Origin: a virus
Virus record (IMG/VR): IMGVR_UViG_3300019766_000021
Coordinates: 1 to 22,289 of that record
DNA: 22,289 nucleotides
Strand: one strand, 5' to 3'
A model generated the notes under the pieces. It worked only from the letters and a program-made list of their open reading frames with translations, was not told the origin of the DNA and did no database searches. Position numbers and translations under genes: made by a program. Positions 2,704-22,118 of the stretch are shown in pieces; position 1 is the first letter of the stretch; every line of letters begins with the position of its first letter.

Positions 2704-3922
2704 TGAGAAATATGAACCGCTTTTTGATATAACGACATATCCGCATATACGGTATGTCGTTTTGGTAGGTGGCCGTGCCTCTGGGAAATCGACTGCACTT
2801 GCTCACTTTTTGCATGATTTTTCATTTACAGGGTCGCATGTGATTATAAATACTCGATTTACGATGGGGTCTGCAAAAGATTCTGTAATTGCTGAATTTG
2901 ATAAAGCTATTGAGGCAAGGGAATCGCAAAACTTCTTTGAACAGACGAACACGGAAAAGGATAATACTCATTCAAATTGCAAAATATTATTCAAAGGACT
3001 AAAGAGTTCATCTAAGGAACAGACGGCGAGGTTAAAGAGTATCACAGACTTAAATGTTTGGGTATTAGACGAGGCCGAAGAGCTACATGATGAAGAGGTA
3101 TTCGATGATGTAGATGATAGCATTCGCCGCGTTGGTTTTCAGAACTTAGTTATATTTGTTCTTAATTCGCATCATATAAATAAAGATCATTTCATATACA
3201 GAAGGTTTTTTGAGGATGCCGGCGTGCAATGGGGCTACAATGGGATGAAAGAAAACGTTATGTATATTCATTCTACATACTTAGATAATCTTGATAATTT
3301 GTCTGAATCGTATCGCTTGAAAATCAAAGCTACAAAGAAAAAATACCCGGACAAATATCGATATAATTTTATGGGTGATATTCGAACGGCTGCTGAAGGA
3401 GTTATTTTTGAAAATTGGACTTACGGTGAATTCGATGAGAGTTTGCCGTTTGGCTATGGCATGGATTTTGGATTTTTCCCTGATCCGGATGTTTGCGTAA
3501 AAGTTGCAATTGATAGGAAAAGAAAAATTATCTATGTTAAGAAATCACTGAAAATGAATAATGCAGGGCTCGATCATCTTGCAAACAAATTAAAGCAGTC
3601 AGTAAATTTAAGTAAAGTTATTTATGCAGATAGCGCTGAGCCTCGTCTTATTTCGGATTTAAAACGCAAAGGCATTCACGGCATCGAGAAAGTAAAAAAA
3701 GGAGCCGGCTCAGTTCTTGCCGGAATTAAGATAATGCAAGATTTTGATATTGTAGTAGATAATGATTCGCAAGAAATTGCAACAGAATTAAATAATTATG
3801 TATGGAGTGACAGAAAAAAAGGCATCCCGATCGATTTGTGGAACCACTTCATAGACGCGATAAGATATTATACACAATCAACGATAAAAATGAATCCAAA
3901 AAAAGGGCAAAGAGTATTATGA
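2693..3922 (+). CDS. terL: Terminase large subunit (PBSX-type)
   Basis: The 409-residue packaging motor and headful nuclease. The ATPase domain shows a Walker A motif GGRASGKS at residues 26-33, a Walker B VWVLDE around 122-127 with the catalytic Glu127, and a coupling motif near VIFVLNSHH (153-161). The RNase H-like nuclease domain carries the expected acidic residues: D258 in GYGMDFG, D313 in YADSAEP and D388 in HFIDAIRYY. All key residues are intact and the length is normal for PBSX-like TerL. It overlaps terS by 11 bases, and its stop overlaps the ATG of the next gene (ATGA at 3919-3922), so translation of the three genes is likely coupled. Confidence 0.95.
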   Translation: MIFSEKYEPLFDITTYPHIRYVVLVGGRASGKSTALAHFLHDFSFTGSHVIINTRFTMGSAKDSVIAEFDKAIEARESQNFFEQTNTEKDNTHSNCKILFKGLKSSSKEQTARLKSITDLNVWVLDEAEELHDEEVFDDVDDSIRRVGFQNLVIFVLNSHHINKDHFIYRRFFEDAGVQWGYNGMKENVMYIHSTYLDNLDNLSESYRLKIKATKKKYPDKYRYNFMGDIRTAAEGVIFENWTYGEFDESLPFGYGMDFGFFPDPDVCVKVAIDRKRKIIYVKKSLKMNNAGLDHLANKLKQSVNLSKVIYADSAEPRLISDLKRKGIHGIEKVKKGAGSVLAGIKIMQDFDIVVDNDSQEIATELNNYVWSDRKKGIPIDLWNHFIDAIRYYTQSTIKMNPKKGQRVL

Positions 3923-4470
3923 TAATAGAAGTAGAAGATATAAGTTTCCGAGAATATGTTGGAATGAATGCAGCTGATAAGATAAAGATTAATTTCTATC
4001 TTACAAACGGAAAATTTGAACCGGTCGATCTATTTGGGTTCGGGTCATTCTTAGAGCAAACATTTGAATTTGTAAAAGACTGGCAAGAGATTTTAAGGAG
4101 TGAAGATGGTCTGTCGTGGAAAATATTTATGGATGAAATTGAAAAAATAACAAAAATAGATGCCACCATTTTAGCGAAGAAATCAATTTTCGATTTACAG
4201 AAATGTAGATATTTCATTTTAAAAGAAGTAAACCAAATAAACGAAATCGAATCTATTGCGTTGAATCATGCACATTCAGCACGTGAACAGTCGGCAGGTC
4301 TTGAAATATTCGCTAACTATAAAAGCTTTTTACAGTTCGATTCTTTGGCCGATGGAGATTTAACTAGATTTAAAGAAGTTGGTAATTTGCCGTATTCGCT
4401 TTGCCTGACAAAATTAAAACTTGAAAAAGATCGTGCCGAATATTCAGAAAGATTTAGCAAACTAAAATAA
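3919..4470 (+). CDS. Conserved-position phage protein of unknown function
   Basis: I choose the ATG at 3919, which overlaps the terL stop as ATGA, rather than the in-frame ATG at 3838 deep inside terL. The 183-residue product starts MIIEVEDISFREYVGM. It is mostly helical and charged, with no membrane segment or recognisable catalytic motif. The C-terminal part ends in a probable coiled coil (KLKLEKDRAEYSERFSKLK). The spacing to terL implies co-translation, so a role in packaging or head assembly is possible, but I cannot identify the family. Confidence 0.75.
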   Translation: MIIEVEDISFREYVGMNAADKIKINFYLTNGKFEPVDLFGFGSFLEQTFEFVKDWQEILRSEDGLSWKIFMDEIEKITKIDATILAKKSIFDLQKCRYFILKEVNQINEIESIALNHAHSAREQSAGLEIFANYKSFLQFDSLADGDLTRFKEVGNLPYSLCLTKLKLEKDRAEYSERFSKLK

Positions 4471-6319: not shown

Positions 6320-6325
6320 TAAAAA

Positions 6326-6350
6326 AATCCCTCATAATTTATGAGGGATT
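6326..6350. terminator. Bidirectional terminator between converging genes
   Basis: A perfect 11-bp stem, AATCCCTCATA with TATGAGGGATT, has a 3-base loop (6337-6339), a run of A before it and a T run after it. It can stop plus-strand late transcription and minus-strand transcription coming from the cassette array. Confidence 0.85.
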
Positions 6351-6359
6351 TTTTGTAAA

Positions 6360-6401
6360 GTATAACGCACTAAAGTGCACCAATCTGCCTTGTTAAAAGC
6401 C
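6360..6401 (-). repeat. attC-like site F, end of the left cassette array (weak)
   Basis: Read on the minus strand it starts with R'' GGCTTTTAAC, which overlaps the stop of the 106-residue gene, and ends with R' GTTATAC. R'' is the reverse complement, with one mismatch, of TTATAAGCC at the start of the same cassette (in site A). The arms are short and poorly palindromic apart from a self-complementary GCACTTTAGTGC. It may be a degenerate attC or a junction with a non-attC target. The R' half belongs to phage sequence next to the terminator. Confidence 0.5.
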
Positions 6402-6713
6402 ATTATAAAAATCTAATCCTATCTTAAGTGCTATTGTTAATCCTAATGTTTCGGTAAATTCATTAAAAGATAACCATTTTATCACAAAAGGTTTATCCCA
6501 ATCAGGGTAGTCAGATTTAGTTTTTTGTAAACAAATATTTTCATCTGTTAAATTGTAAATTAAAAGGTAACTACCTCTCCTTGCGATATATTCATAACCA
6601 CCCATTAACATAGGTTCAGCAGTATTACTATGTCGGTGTAGTATATTAAAACCAGCAGTATGTATTTCTCCAATAGCTGTGATTCTCTTAATTCTTTTTT
6701 CTTCCTCTGTCAT
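6393..6713 (-). CDS. Cassette gene, 106-residue protein of unknown function
   Basis: The ATG is at 6713, only about 20 bases from the presumed recombination point in site A, the tiny 5' UTR typical of gene cassettes. The stop lies inside the R'' box of site F. The product begins MTEEEKRIKRITAIGEIH, has a central beta-rich part (GGYEYIARRGSYLLIYNLTD) and a Trp-containing segment (DYPDWDKPFVIKWLSF). I do not recognise the family. It runs opposite to all phage late genes and is bounded by attC-like sites on both sides, so I interpret it as acquired cargo, not a virion gene. Confidence 0.65.
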   Translation of the reverse strand: MTEEEKRIKRITAIGEIHTAGFNILHRHSNTAEPMLMGGYEYIARRGSYLLIYNLTDENICLQKTKSDYPDWDKPFVIKWLSFNEFTETLGLTIALKIGLDFYNGF

Positions 6714-6730
6714 TTTTTGTAATTAAAAAC

Positions 6731-6832
6731 GGCTTATAACAAAGTGTATAGTTAAAAAGCCTAATTAATATTAGTTCATTTAATCAAAGTCTGTGTGTTG
6801 GCTTTCAAAACCATACACAAACCGTTATAGGC
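6731..6832 (-). repeat. attC-like site A (102 bp)
   Basis: On the minus strand: R'' GCCTATAAC (6832-6824), L'' arm ending GTGTATGG, a central region with further pairing (AAAGCC at 6756-6761 with GGCTTT at 6800-6805), L' arm CTATACAC, and R' GTTATAAGCC. The outer arms pair as GTGTATaG/CCATACAC. The R'' is the exact reverse complement of TTATAGGC, which begins the same cassette in site B. It separates the 62- and 106-residue genes. Confidence 0.7.
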
Positions 6833-6840
6833 AATAAAAA

Positions 6841-7029
6841 CTAATCTACGACAACTTGACGAGTAATTGTGTCAGGTTTAATTTTGCCTTGAATTTGCTC
6901 TTTGATTTCTTGACCAATAAAATCCGATACGCCTAATAGTTCAAGTGGATTAAACCCGTCATTTACTCTTTTCATACTTTGACTTCCGTCTTCAAAATGT
7001 GTAACTGTATAAGATTTTACAACTATCAC
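6841..7029 (-). CDS. Cassette gene, about 62 residues, unknown function, start uncertain
   Basis: The open frame starts at a GTG (7029) and yields 62 residues: a beta-hairpin-like N terminus (KSYTVTHFEDGSQ), then NPLELLGVSDFIGQEIKEQI, probably helical. I do not recognise it. An ATG at 7066 with a Lys-rich continuation is one base out of frame. It is linked to this frame through nine consecutive A residues (7030-7038, minus strand), so a homopolymer indel or slippage could give a longer protein starting MQENKKIK. The stop lies 9 bases before the R'' box of site A, as expected for a cassette. Confidence 0.5.
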   Translation of the reverse strand: MIVVKSYTVTHFEDGSQSMKRVNDGFNPLELLGVSDFIGQEIKEQIQGKIKPDTITRQVVVD

Positions 7030-7117
7030 TTTTTTTTTCTGTTTTGATTTTTTTATTTTCTTGCATTTTGGTTAAAATTATATGATTAATATTATTTGAT
7101 AATACAATGAAATAGAA

Positions 7118-7188
7118 GCCTATAACATTGTATTTAATTTAATTTTTGTGAAAAACAAAAACTGCATAAAGCAATTTCCGTTATGCAC
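7118..7188 (-). repeat. attC-like site B (71 bp)
   Basis: On the minus strand: R'' GTGCATAAC (7188-7180), an arm containing ATTG, a central hairpin (ACAAAAA/TTTTTGT with a five-base loop, 7143-7161), an arm containing CAAT, and R' GTTATAGGC (7126-7118). R'' is the exact reverse complement of the TTATGCAC that begins the same cassette in site C. The R'' flank AACGG and R' flank ATGTT recur in sites C, D and E. Confidence 0.75.
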
Positions 7189-7192
7189 AATG

Positions 7193-7504
7193 CTATTCAT
7201 CGAATGAATTAATAAAATCCCAAACGCCTGACTTACTATTTTCGCCATAAACACATTCAATAGCTTGCTCAAAAATATAATGGGCTCCATCTTTAAATCT
7301 TTTTTCTTCTGGCTGTTCTTTACTGTCAAGATAAGCTTCGCATAACTCTACTATTTTATCAAATTTAGCATCTTTTAATACTTTCGGGCGTTTCCCTTTT
7401 ATCTCTTCAAAAGTTTCAGGAGCTTCTGGATAAATTTCATAAAGCATTCCTATCTTTTTTAATTTATTAAATTCAATTTCTGATAGATTTTTTAATTGTT
7501 TCAT
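7193..7504 (-). CDS. Cassette gene, 103-residue acidic protein of unknown function
   Basis: The ATG is at 7504; the stop TAG at 7193 is followed within five bases by R'' of site B. The protein begins MKQLKNLSEIEFNKLKKIG and is charged and predicted mostly helical, with E-P-E-E and F-E-Q-A-I-E segments and a Trp near the C terminus (SGVWDFINSFDE). No membrane segment or family is recognised. The last bases, GAATAGCATTGT, are nearly the same as at the end of the cassette gene at 21694 (same stop, same distance to the attC-like site). The two genes otherwise differ, consistent with cassettes that share a class of recombination site and carry unrelated cargo. Confidence 0.65.
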   Translation of the reverse strand: MKQLKNLSEIEFNKLKKIGMLYEIYPEAPETFEEIKGKRPKVLKDAKFDKIVELCEAYLDSKEQPEEKRFKDGAHYIFEQAIECVYGENSKSGVWDFINSFDE

Positions 7505-7562
7505 TTTTATTAGTATTTATAAGTTAATAATTAAGTTTTATTTGATAAGCAAATGATATAAA

Positions 7563-7638
7563 GTGCATAACATTTGCTTAAAAACAATAAAATCTGAAAA
7601 AGATTTTACAGTTTTATAGCAGTCGCCGTTAGCTGCAC
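7563..7638 (-). repeat. attC-like site C (76 bp)
   Basis: On the minus strand: R'' GTGCAGCTAAC (7638-7628), then GG, a long interrupted hairpin, and R' GTTATGCAC (7571-7563). The hairpin pairs TAAAATCT (7588-7595) with AGATTTTA (7601-7608) and AAAAC (7581-7585) with GTTTT (7611-7615) around a GAAAA loop. R' ends in GTTATGC, like known chromosomal-integron repeats. The stop of the 59-residue gene lies in R''. Confidence 0.75.
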
Positions 7639-7808
7639 CGAAACAAGAAGCTAAAATAAAGCCAAACTTTAAACTCATAGTTCGGGCACGATTCTATATA
7701 TTCATTAAAATTTCGCTCGTATGCTTCGAGCCTAAGCGGATCGGTCGGCTTTTCGCAGTTATTTTCTGCGAATTGCCTTGCTAACTGTTTTGCTAAAACT
7801 TTTTTCAT
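7629..7808 (-). CDS. 59-residue protein at the head of the minus-strand array
   Basis: ATG at 7808, stop TAA inside the R'' box of site C (7631-7629). The product begins MKKVLAKQLARQFAENN, is helical and charged, and ends in an aromatic segment (EFKVWLYFSFLFRCS). Its family is unknown. A TAAATTTG element (7820-7813, minus strand) lies 4 bases before the ATG and may drive the whole minus-strand array. Unlike the other cassettes, no TTAGCTGCAC counterpart of its R'' is visible upstream, so it could be a resident gene behind which cassettes were inserted, or a first cassette whose left junction has decayed. Confidence 0.6.
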   Translation of the reverse strand: MKKVLAKQLARQFAENNCEKPTDPLRLEAYERNFNEYIESCPNYEFKVWLYFSFLFRCS

Positions 7809-7812
7809 TCTG

Positions 7813-7820
7813 CAAATTTA
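7813..7820 (-). promoter_or_regulatory. -7 element for the minus-strand array
   Basis: On the minus strand TAAATTTG (TAnnTTTG) ends 4 bases before the ATG at 7808. No -33 TTTG is at the expected distance. Start-site geometry would give an almost leaderless transcript. Confidence 0.4.
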
Positions 7821-8697: not shown

Positions 8698-9138
8698 ATG
8701 ATAAATTTTGATATAATAGGAGCTTTACGAACATACGCCGAAAATTTAGGATTCGTTTTTATTTGGCAATATGATCAGTTCTATGCGAATATCGCAAGCG
8801 GGCAGCAATACGATCCTGAGCAGCTTATCCTTGTTGCTGATTTGAAACCAACACCGCAAATTAACGGAGCATCTGTTGGTGATATTGTGTATAATGGCTT
8901 GCTAATGATAGGACGTAAATTTGATGCAGACGGAATCGCTTCGACGTTAGATGAGAAAGCTTTACAAAAATACGATAGACGTTTATTATCGCTTACATCG
9001 GCACTTGTAACGCACGCGGCAACATTCGCATGTAATAACAGTCTATTAATGGAAATGGGGCAAATAGACTATTTGTTTAATTCATTCGATGCAAATATTG
9101 ATTTTGTCGCAGCCCAAAATATTAAATTTACTCAGTAA
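8698..9138 (+). CDS. Putative tail terminator/neck protein
   Basis: A 146-residue protein that starts immediately after the preceding stop and shares one base with the next gene (TAATG). The sequence reads as an alpha/beta protein (INFDIIGALRTYAENLG, a LVADLKPTP strand, GLLMIGRKFDADG) with a C-terminal strand. Proteins of this size and pattern are found next to HK97-gp10-like genes in Bacteroidetes siphophages, where a tail terminator is expected. The assignment rests mainly on size, position and fold impression, and I would not exclude another head-tail joining role. Confidence 0.45.
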   Translation: MINFDIIGALRTYAENLGFVFIWQYDQFYANIASGQQYDPEQLILVADLKPTPQINGASVGDIVYNGLLMIGRKFDADGIASTLDEKALQKYDRRLLSLTSALVTHAATFACNNSLLMEMGQIDYLFNSFDANIDFVAAQNIKFTQ

Positions 9139-14789: not shown

Positions 14790-15839
14790 ATGAAGATATT
14801 ACAAGGCGAAGTAGGATTCGATATTAATTTAGATGCAATTCAAGGATTGACAGAATTTGCAATAAATTCTTATGGCGGTTCACTTTTTGAAGGGTTAGCC
14901 CTTTACGATTATATTAAAAATTCAGGCGTCAATGTAGGCGTTATCGGATTAGCGGCAAGCGCGGCAACATTACCACTTTTGGCAAGTTCTAAACGTTGGG
15001 GAACGCCAAACAGCCGATATTTAATTCATAATCCGTCAAATTTTGCAGGAGGCGAAGCAAAAGACTTACAGAAAACAGCTGACCAATTAAAAGCTGAAGA
15101 AGCAAGAGCGTTAAATCTATATGCTGAAAACTTCACAATTGACAAAGACGAGATTAAGACGTTAATGGATGCAGAAATCATAATTGATGCAACCGAAGCG
15201 CTACGAATAGGTTTAATTACTGAAATCAAAGAATTTAACCCGCTGCCAAAAAACTCCAAAAACGAAGGCAGCACAATAAATCAATTATTTACAAATTTTA
15301 AAATGCAAATCGAAATGAACGAAGCAGAAAAAAACGAATTGTCAGGCATTCGCTTGGCGCTCGATGGTCTGATAAACTTGTTCAAGAAATCACAGCCTAA
15401 GATGGTTGTTGTTCAAGATGTGAACGGCATAGAGCTTGATTTTGCGGACGTTGAGACATCGGACTTAATTAAGGTAGGCGATAATGCCACCGTTGAAGGA
15501 TTGCCCGCAATTGGCGAGTATGTCATGCAGACAGGCGAAACTTTTAAATTTGAAAGCGGTGCAATTGTCGAAATTGTAGTTCCTGAAGTTGAGGCTGATC
15601 CTTTAGTCTTAGAAAACGAAGCACTCAAGGCCGAAAACGAAGCTTTAAAAGAACAAGTGCAAAATTCAGCCACAGAACTTGACAAGATCAAAAATCAAGT
15701 TTCAGACGTTGAAACGAAATTTAACGACTTCAAAAACAAATTTTCAGATGAAAAGGCCGAAGATGTAAAGCCTGAAGTTTCTGAAGAAAAACAAAAAACA
15801 AACAGAGTATCTTTTAATTTTAACAAAAAAAATAAATAA
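14790..15839 (+). CDS. ClpP-like head maturation protease with scaffold-like C terminus
   Basis: A 349-residue protein. Residues 20-60 contain INSYGGSLFEGLALYDYI and GLAASAAT, the ClpP/S14 phage-protease pattern with the likely nucleophile Ser57; His80 in YLIHNPSN is the likely second catalytic residue, and the acidic partner probably lies in 127-133 (DAEIIID). The protease domain ends near 150. Residues 205-255 form a beta-rich stretch (VGDNATVEGLPAIGEYVM), and 270-320 a coiled coil (ENEALKAENEALKEQ). The highly charged C terminus is typical of scaffolding parts, so protease and scaffold appear fused. It immediately precedes the capsid gene, the expected partner. Confidence 0.85.
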   Translation: MKILQGEVGFDINLDAIQGLTEFAINSYGGSLFEGLALYDYIKNSGVNVGVIGLAASAATLPLLASSKRWGTPNSRYLIHNPSNFAGGEAKDLQKTADQLKAEEARALNLYAENFTIDKDEIKTLMDAEIIIDATEALRIGLITEIKEFNPLPKNSKNEGSTINQLFTNFKMQIEMNEAEKNELSGIRLALDGLINLFKKSQPKMVVVQDVNGIELDFADVETSDLIKVGDNATVEGLPAIGEYVMQTGETFKFESGAIVEIVVPEVEADPLVLENEALKAENEALKEQVQNSATELDKIKNQVSDVETKFNDFKNKFSDEKAEDVKPEVSEEKQKTNRVSFNFNKKNK

Positions 15840-16997: not shown

Positions 16998-17570
16998 ATG
17001 GGATGTTTAGATGACATTACAAAGAGCATAGTTTCAGACTGCACTACACAAGGTAGTGGCGGCAATGAAGTAAAGGGATGGATTTTTAAGCAAAACGAAC
17101 TTATTGCAGTTTATGACTCGACTAATCCTTCAAAAATTACTTCTTTAAGCCTTCCGATCGGATCACAGGGCTATACGTTTACAGGCGTTAAGAAAATGCT
17201 TAATTCAGGACACGATATTGTAATTGAAGATGCACGTGCAGACGGTTATACGCATTATGTCGGTTTTACCGGTTTCAGTTTCAAATCTGAAGACGTGGAA
17301 AATTTTGATGCACTTAATAATTTGGTTTTCGTAGTTGAATCGAAAGATAAAACAGATGATGGAGACGGTGTATTTAGAGTTTACGGCATCAAACAGGGCC
17401 TAGTGAAATCAAGTGACACGATGCGAGCAAACGATAATTACGGCAGCCGAATTATTGAAATGGCCACTCCGGATGGACAGATTGAATCTTATTCGAATTA
17501 TACTTTCTTAGATACAGATTATGCGACAAGTTTAGCCGCACTCGAAGCACTCGAAGCAGTTCAAGCATAA
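16998..17570 (+). CDS. Virion structural protein, tail-tube-like
   Basis: The 190-residue product starts MGCLDDITKSIVSDCTTQGS and continues with an alternating strand pattern (GWIFKQNELIAVYDS, then ITSLSLPIGSQGYTF) and a D-G-D-G-containing loop before the C terminus. A small start with two cysteines, G-C and D-C, and an all-beta body of about 190 residues match what I associate with tail-tube-like structural proteins in Bacteroidetes siphophages, usually made in high copy. Its position directly behind the capsid gene and its terminator fits a high-abundance protein. It shares a TAATG overlap with the next gene. The functional call is inference. Confidence 0.45.
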   Translation: MGCLDDITKSIVSDCTTQGSGGNEVKGWIFKQNELIAVYDSTNPSKITSLSLPIGSQGYTFTGVKKMLNSGHDIVIEDARADGYTHYVGFTGFSFKSEDVENFDALNNLVFVVESKDKTDDGDGVFRVYGIKQGLVKSSDTMRANDNYGSRIIEMATPDGQIESYSNYTFLDTDYATSLAALEALEAVQA

Positions 17571-21630: not shown

Positions 21631-21689
21631 GAACACAACATCCGAATAAAAGCCATAGAAAAAACGGCTTTATTCTTTCCGTTATAAAC
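21631..21689 (-). repeat. attC-like site D, end of the right cassette array (59 bp)
   Basis: On the minus strand: R'' GTTTATAAC (21689-21681), then GG, an arm GAATAAAGCC, a loop, an arm GGCTTTTATTC, and R' GTTGTGTTC (21639-21631). The arms pair over 10 bp with one unpaired base, like the extrahelical bases of attC sites. R'' is the exact reverse complement of TTATAAAC, which begins the same cassette in site E. R' is phage sequence. Confidence 0.75.
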
Positions 21690-21693
21690 AATG

Positions 21694-21984
21694 CTATTCA
21701 ATCTTTAACCCTAATTCGATATTAATATAAGGGTCTATCTGGTCAACAGCAACTTGAAACTCACCTTCATCTCTTTTAATTTCTTCCCAACCGCTGCCAA
21801 TTAAATGATTATATAATTTCTCAATGCAATCAAATGAAAAACCGCCAATAGTTGTAAGGCAATCATATTTTATAAATTTATAATCAGGGTCGTTTTTATC
21901 TGGATAGTGAGTTTTGTAACTTCGCTTATCAATGGATAATTCATCTATTTTTCTTAATTCTTCTGGAATGTTTGATGTTTTCAT
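21694..21984 (-). CDS. Cassette gene, 96-residue protein of unknown function
   Basis: I take the ATG at 21984 (MKTSNIPEELRKIDELSIDK) rather than an upstream in-frame ATG at 22020. The downstream start has the AT-rich leader seen elsewhere, and the added 12 residues look unrelated. The product is charged and mostly helical, with a central hydrophobic part (CLTTIGGFSFDCIEKLYNHL) and a W-E-E-I patch. It has no recognised family. The stop TAG at 21694 lies four bases before R'' of site D. Its 3' end (GAATAGCATTGT) is nearly identical to that of the cassette gene at 7193, although the proteins differ. Confidence 0.65.
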   Translation of the reverse strand: MKTSNIPEELRKIDELSIDKRSYKTHYPDKNDPDYKFIKYDCLTTIGGFSFDCIEKLYNHLIGSGWEEIKRDEGEFQVAVDQIDPYINIELGLKIE

Positions 21985-22047
21985 TTTAATATATTTTAGT
22001 AAATAATTGTGATTTGACACACTAAGACGAATATTTCTAATAAAAAA

Positions 22048-22118
22048 GTTTATAACATTGCACTGGTCGCAACCGTTCGTGCCTCACGGCTTCGCCAGTG
22101 CAGTGCCGTTATTCAAAC
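22048..22118 (-). repeat. attC-like site E (71 bp)
   Basis: On the minus strand: R'' GTTTGAATAAC (22118-22108), GG, arm CACTGCACTGG, a GC-rich core with a secondary 4-bp stem (CCGT/ACGG), arm CCAGTGCAATG, and R' GTTATAAAC (22056-22048). The arms pair over 11 bp with one G-U pair. It is the most classical attC-like site in the window. The stop of the gene to its right is inside R''. Confidence 0.8.

Follow-up and report, generated by a model that had tools for sequence, protein, structure and literature searches.

Can small genes that lie antisense between the late genes of a phage be the cassettes of an integron-type array? The question was raised by a 22,289-base IMG/VR virus record, called here the window (the whole stretch of DNA analyzed), in which four small minus-strand genes with boxes had been read, from the sequence alone, as an integron-type cassette array inside a phage structural gene cluster. 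This original prediction held at the positions given in Table 1; it is supported, and a second array is added to it. Its description of such an array as 'highly unusual' was too strong, because integrase-less arrays (CALINs) have been published for phages (PMC9892861). Array 2, the inverted polarity of the cassette genes and the probable acceptor status of site A were not part of it and were found here.

Layout of the window and agreement of the cassette boxes

The window is a fragment with nearly all of its genes on the plus strand, among them genes for a terminase, a portal, a tape measure and a Clp-type protease. The terminase has its best match within the phage collection in Nonlabens phage P12024L (44.7%), and in the explanation that we favor the window belongs, as is likely, to a tailed phage of Bacteroidota. 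Array 1 (6393-7636) has its own ORFs on the minus strand and is located between two groups of plus-strand genes, with phage genes on either side. Array 2 (21631-22116), detected by a scan for attC-type sites, consists of a 108-residue ORF flanked by sites G and H, with 9/9 boxes. Elsewhere in the window (14790-15839) a single gene, immediately ahead of that of the head protein, combines a Clp-type protease domain with a coiled region; the fusion is probably a protease joined to a scaffold.

Table 1. Positions of the features of arrays 1 and 2 in the window.
Feature	Positions	Strand	Remarks
Inverted repeat with T-run, end of plus-strand operon	6322-6357	+	15-pair stem (listed on the minus strand by the scan); array 1 lies just past it
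Site A, probable acceptor (attI-like) junction, inferred, ...CTGCCTTG^TTAAAAGCC	6358-6400	+	crossover between 6392 and 6393
Cassette 1, 106-residue ORF 6393-6713	6393-6824	-	R'' GGCTTTTAA against start TTATAAGCC, 8/9
attC site B	6732-6832	-	top match of the attC scorer
Cassette 2, 62-residue ORF 6841-7029	6825-7180	-	exact box pair TTATAGGC...GCCTATAAC
attC site C	7118-7188	-	boxes exact, stem weak
Cassette 3, 103-residue ORF 7193-7504	7181-7628	-	exact box pair TTATGCAC...GTGCATAAC
attC site F, distal end of array 1	7563-7636	-	third scorer match; stem with 6/3 spacers
59-residue ORF beyond array 1	7629-7808	-	stop codon within box; no matching start box
attC site H, array 2	21631-21689	-	fourth scorer match
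Array 2 cassette, 108-residue ORF 21694-22020	21682-22108	-	exact 9/9 pair TTATAAAC...GTTTATAAC; attC stem on each side
attC site G, array 2	22048-22116	-	second scorer match
Cro/CI-type HTH ORF, runs off contig end	22109-22288	-	next cassette or backbone, both possible

The agreement of the boxes links the start of a cassette with the end of that same cassette; it does not link the two halves of a single palindrome. An integron gene cassette is expected to show this complementarity between its start box and its own R'', and all four cassettes do so (9/9, 9/9, 9/9 and 8/9): R'' GCCTATAAC matches the start GTTATAGGC in the cassette of the 62-residue gene (9/9), and R'' GTGCATAAC matches the start GTTATGCAC in that of the 103-residue gene (9/9). 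The agreement originally predicted for array 1 (9/9, 9/9, and 8/9 for 106 residues) was thus confirmed. The 59-residue gene is not an intact cassette, since a matching start box is lacking.

Dinucleotide shuffles of the window were used as control. Two chained exact TAACG/GTTA links were obtained in 1 of 2000 shuffles and three exact links, each in contact with a good attC stem, in 3; none of the 2000 fulfilled every criterion. The box mosaic of array 1 therefore exceeds chance. Counts of box chains that allowed one mismatch were frequent in shuffles and were dropped.

attC sites, gene polarity and the absence of an integrase

The sites were scored by combining arm position weights with DNA duplex energy, the scorer being trained only on chromosomal attC located beside integron integrases (72 distinct sites from Bacteroidota genomes). 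Applied blind to both strands of the window, it gave the four highest ranks to B, G, F and H, with scores of 30.3 for B (0.0025 expected per shuffled window), 28.1 for G (0.005), 18.7 for F (0.25) and 13.3 for H (0.75). Known chromosomal attC had a median score of 38.9 and a 5th percentile of 22.7 (leave-one-locus-out), and the best sites of phage P12002L, two of whose attC sites have been assayed by others, scored 14 to 24. Sites F and H are not significant by the scorer when taken alone; they are supported because they are placed in the box-matched chain. At slightly looser settings two unrelated places in the window scored 14.0 and 14.5, above H, which therefore rests on its box match.

Sites B, F, G and H fold as attC-like sites: each has R''/R' and L''/L' stems, with asymmetric spacers of 5-6 and 2-4 and with 9-10 pairs. 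This secondary structure is weak in C, where the L''/L' stem reaches only -4.0 kcal/mol, the reference sites having about -8 to -15, and it is lacking in A. Site A has the box (8/9 with the start and end of cassette 1) and no attC stem, and is not an attC. The boxes read originally at C, B, A and F are where they had been placed; the corrections concern the nature of A and the stem of C.

Scoring with attC models had been proposed as a check of the original prediction. The chromosomal-trained scorer puts B, G, F and H first, and our home-made covariance models, R1 and R2, called none of the window sites significantly; site C was rank 4 in R1, again without significance. R2 also missed the known arrays L045, L083 and L092. 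Being too specific or insensitive to long loops, both models were set aside as evidence in either direction.

The attC is asymmetric, so that its direction can be read, and the scorer gave the correct direction for 119 of 120 chromosomal sites. In chromosomal arrays the ORF was found opposite the 'TAACG' strand, the canonical arrangement, in 80 of 88 cassettes, whereas at the phage sites it was on the 'TAACG' strand in 24 of 24. These 24 sites (5 in the window, 11 in the related phage G399, 3 in G397, 3 in P12002L and one each in L103 and L013) belong to a small number of related phages, so that they cannot be counted as 24 separate, independent events. The phage cassettes hence do not meet the canonical ORF direction, which is usual for integron cassettes and not strictly defining. 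The chromosomal array L125 has an attC type near that of site B and canonical gene polarity; the inversion is therefore not a property of the site-B attC type. Inverted cassette-gene polarity in phage arrays is a new observation for the sites tested. No paper on it, or on exchange of phage cassettes between strains, was found in the open-access literature searched, which excluded subscription journals and preprints.

No PF00589 match, that is, no tyrosine recombinase or integrase, was found in the window, itself a fragment, or in the relatives searched; the arrays are therefore CALINs. The two properties that define such elements were both present: two or more attC sites no further than a few kb apart (array 1 has B and F, array 2 has G and H) and no integron integrase in the element, with the reservation that the window is a fragment. 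A complete integron, with intI, attI and a Pc promoter, is not present, for there is no integrase and A is no more than an attI-like candidate. We consider it likely that the arrays are CALINs with a deviation, working like integron arrays without being complete integrons. In a sample of 395 Bacteroidota genomes, integron integrases that pass the TIGR02249 cut-off were encoded by 105, in many cases at contig ends; integrons may be commoner in Bacteroidota than assemblies suggest.

Arrays and breakpoints in related phages

A search with the portal protein retrieved relatives at 49-58% identity, namely G397, G398, G399 and shorter contigs, which have the core gene order in common with the window. 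The interval between the homologues of genes 3838-4470 and 8698-9138 is 4.2 kb in the window, 573 bp in G397 and G398 and 43 bp in G399. A comparison with related phages lacking the block had been called for, and in these three no array lies between the same core genes; the block is therefore not core. No close relative of the window phage was found, and hence its own empty site was not seen.

G399 (38.7 kb) carries three arrays of its own. On the minus strand six exact cassettes are chained from 28413 to 25008 and three from 17102 to 16028; on the plus strand there is a chain of two, from 32557 to 33303. A chain of at least three was not obtained in any of 2000 shuffles of the half of G399 that holds the six-cassette chain. 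The arrays of the window and of the relatives differ in content and in place. One G399 cassette encodes a D12 adenine methyltransferase 37% identical to a cassette methyltransferase of P12002L.

Several other features of the relatives were observed. Two G399 cassettes from different arrays (L111 8022-8363 and L115 16033-16407) encode homologous proteins (36% identity) and look as if one were copied between arrays. In G397 (L109) a lone attC at record positions 17076-17177, with perfectly self-complementary outer boxes (ACCGCTAAC/GTTAGCGGT), lies amid co-directional small genes and adjoins a replicative helicase. Another lone, strong attC (L013 4895-4952) follows a 99-residue ORF in a recombination gene cluster of a short phage contig. 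Structural genes of relatives, such as that of the major head protein, contain in-frame extra domains (L100 880-1560, 2440-3030 and 7900-8400; L104 1180-1780), and at these loci an inserted 149-residue ORF divides one gene into two parts; cassette insertion was rejected for such splits, most of which are domain insertions that keep the frame.

L103 and G399 represent two strains of a single phage, with 98.2-98.6% identity in stretches of 4.5 and 1.7 kb. Their identity stops exactly at ...GCTTTATG^TT (in longer form, GAGGGTGCGTAAAGCTTTATG^TT): it is 100% in the last 50 bases on the left side and drops to 36-38% on the right, where L103 continues with TTAAACAC and G399 with TTATATGA, leading to different cassettes. 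At the break only GTTA is common to both, and the constant side has no recognizable attC stem. A position of this break on the R'' side was rejected, as the polarity test showed that the arrays are read on the other strand, which places it on the canonical R' side. One cassette, identical over about 245 bp, occurs in different arrays of the two strains.

The cultured Polaribacter phages P12002L and P12002S gave a similar picture: most ends of their common blocks (99.9-100% identity) fall at G^TT, as at CCGTTG^TT (37265/36675) and CG^TTA (32281/30777). Other blocks begin within a few bases of G^TT, one end (39700) is some nine bases away from the core, and a methyltransferase cassette has moved to another place. 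Junctions at G^TT, which are expected of integron gene cassettes and had been named as a check, were thus found in relatives (L103/G399 and P12002L/S), though not in the window phage itself.

Mechanism, rival explanations and known systems

We regard as the likely reading that the window holds two CALIN arrays whose cassettes are exchanged at G^TT by an integrase in trans, the latter being inferred. Along the attC polarity (plus strand of the window), array 1 would read as follows: terminator 6322-6357, CTGCCTTG^TTAAAAGCC (A), cassette 106, B, cassette 62, C, cassette 103, F and the 59-residue gene, starting at an acceptor junction G^TT just past the late-operon terminator. The acceptor role of A is inferred by analogy only, from a layout like that of the constant side of the L103/G399 junction. 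A position at the acceptor end, as at that constant end, would explain why A is not an attC; that of the 59-residue gene past the last attC would explain its missing start box.

The integrase would most likely be supplied by the host or by a co-resident element; it would recognize the single-strand-folded attC and exchange cassettes at G^TT, and the phage may thereby gain, lose and reorder small accessory genes, a benefit that is also inferred. Recombination by a host integrase is inferred for these cassettes, activity with IntI1 having been shown for other phage attC sites (PMC9892861) and not for these. Since the cassette genes run opposite to the usual direction, they lie antisense to the late operon and must rely on some promoter other than that of the late genes. 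The leader of cassette 1 is about 20 bp, so that expression of the array probably begins further up, by inference. A promoter-like (-7-like) element, TAAATTTG, at 7820 upstream of the 59-residue gene could possibly serve as array promoter; such expression is again inferred.

Three other explanations were considered. The array segments could be a frozen relic, copied in by homologous or illegitimate recombination, with no integrase now acting and with strain differences due to homologous recombination between similar attC repeats. No integrase gene was found in the window or in relatives, entry of this kind was suggested by Qi et al. (PMC9892861), attC stems common to cassettes could act as homology, for example in P12002L/S, and site C is weak. 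However, the L103/G399 break has GTTA alone in common and no recognizable attC stem on its constant side, the six exact box pairs of the G399 chain are not eroded, and the window and its relatives hold different arrays at different places, so that we think a relic unlikely.

It is very unlikely that these are ordinary phage accessory genes followed by terminator hairpins or REP-like palindromes with coincidental box agreement. The hairpins do come directly after stop codons, and F and H by themselves do not reach significance with the scorer; however, terminators match within one site and not across a cassette, and the shuffle tests, the six-step G399 chain, the attC spacers and the polarity also speak against this reading. 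An assembly chimera, in which integron DNA was joined to a phage contig, has in its favor that the window and its uncultured relatives are metagenome contigs without read-depth data. It is all but excluded by the phage genes flanking array 1, by the occurrence of arrays in several independent contigs and by the cultured, sequenced phages P12002L/S, which show the same.

The cassette proteins were given no function by Pfam, PHROGs, NCBIfam, PADLOC or plasmids. Two of them were searched for in 395 Bacteroidota genomes and were absent; one protein followed in genome contigs gained no function. An attC of type G was not found in 390 Bacteroidota genomes, and in pattern searches for phage-type attC in hosts the array in L125 alone rose above background. 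The donor pool is therefore unidentified. The 106-residue protein belongs to a small family with a MLMGGYEYIARRG motif and no known domain, whose other members occur in large phages, where no attC was seen close by; its relatives are in L001 (511-822, 47%) and in the huge phage LR756502.1 (291861-292112, 34%). Its structure model (pLDDT 71) had no convincing PDB match.

Two further observations concern the cassette genes. The 62-residue ORF has a GTG start directly after a run of nine A (7029-7066, minus strand), and the frame of an ATG further upstream (MQENKKIKTEKK) is shifted by one, so that slippage within the run would join the frames; phase variation and sequence error are both possible. 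The ends of cassettes 103 (7160-7200) and 108 (21675-21700, minus strand) have GAATAGCATTGTnnATAACGGAAA in common over the stop codon, R'' and first attC arm, in spite of their unrelated genes.

Qi et al. (2023; PMC9892861) screened 10,705 genomes and reported 21 phages with integron components, including 17 CALINs. Five of six phage attC sites were active with IntI1, and attC of P12002L and other virulent phages recombined with this enzyme in the assay. Divergent attC directions were noted in P12002L; gene polarity relative to attC was not discussed in general, and P12002S appears only in a reference title. How cassettes enter phages and whether they are mobile remained open after that report. 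Related phages that differ exactly at the bases cut by integrase suggest that phages take an active part in cassette exchange and that they may carry cassettes from one bacterium to another. Cassette genes are consistently inverted in the phage arrays; this is a clear, testable contrast to chromosomal arrays and may mark a phage-specific cassette pool.

A bolder reading is that a Bacteroidota phage lineage has a standing accessory-gene system, with fixed backbone acceptors, several arrays per genome, a host integrase and a phage-specific pool of inverted cassettes. We lean slightly against it; were it true, the inverted genes would be silent behind the host integron promoter and expressible in the phage.

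Phage morons are transcriptionally autonomous accessory genes in late operons. The arrays resemble them as small extra genes on the opposite strand between late genes, variable among relatives, but differ in that each gene is bounded by recombination sites which explain the exact breakpoints. With the sedentary chromosomal integrons of Bacteroidota (TIGR02249) the arrays have in common the attC architecture, the G^TT boxes and the complementary cassette ends, whereas the phages have no integrase and their ORFs are on the opposite strand relative to attC polarity. The closest likeness is to the P12002L CALINs (Qi 2023): integrase-less attC arrays in a Bacteroidota phage, small cassette genes that include DNA methyltransferases, and agreement with the window in attC spacers and gene polarity. 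The window differs from them in that a 22-kb fragment carries two arrays (G399 has three), which are placed between late genes and run antisense to these, and strain-level exchange at G^TT in relatives is added here.
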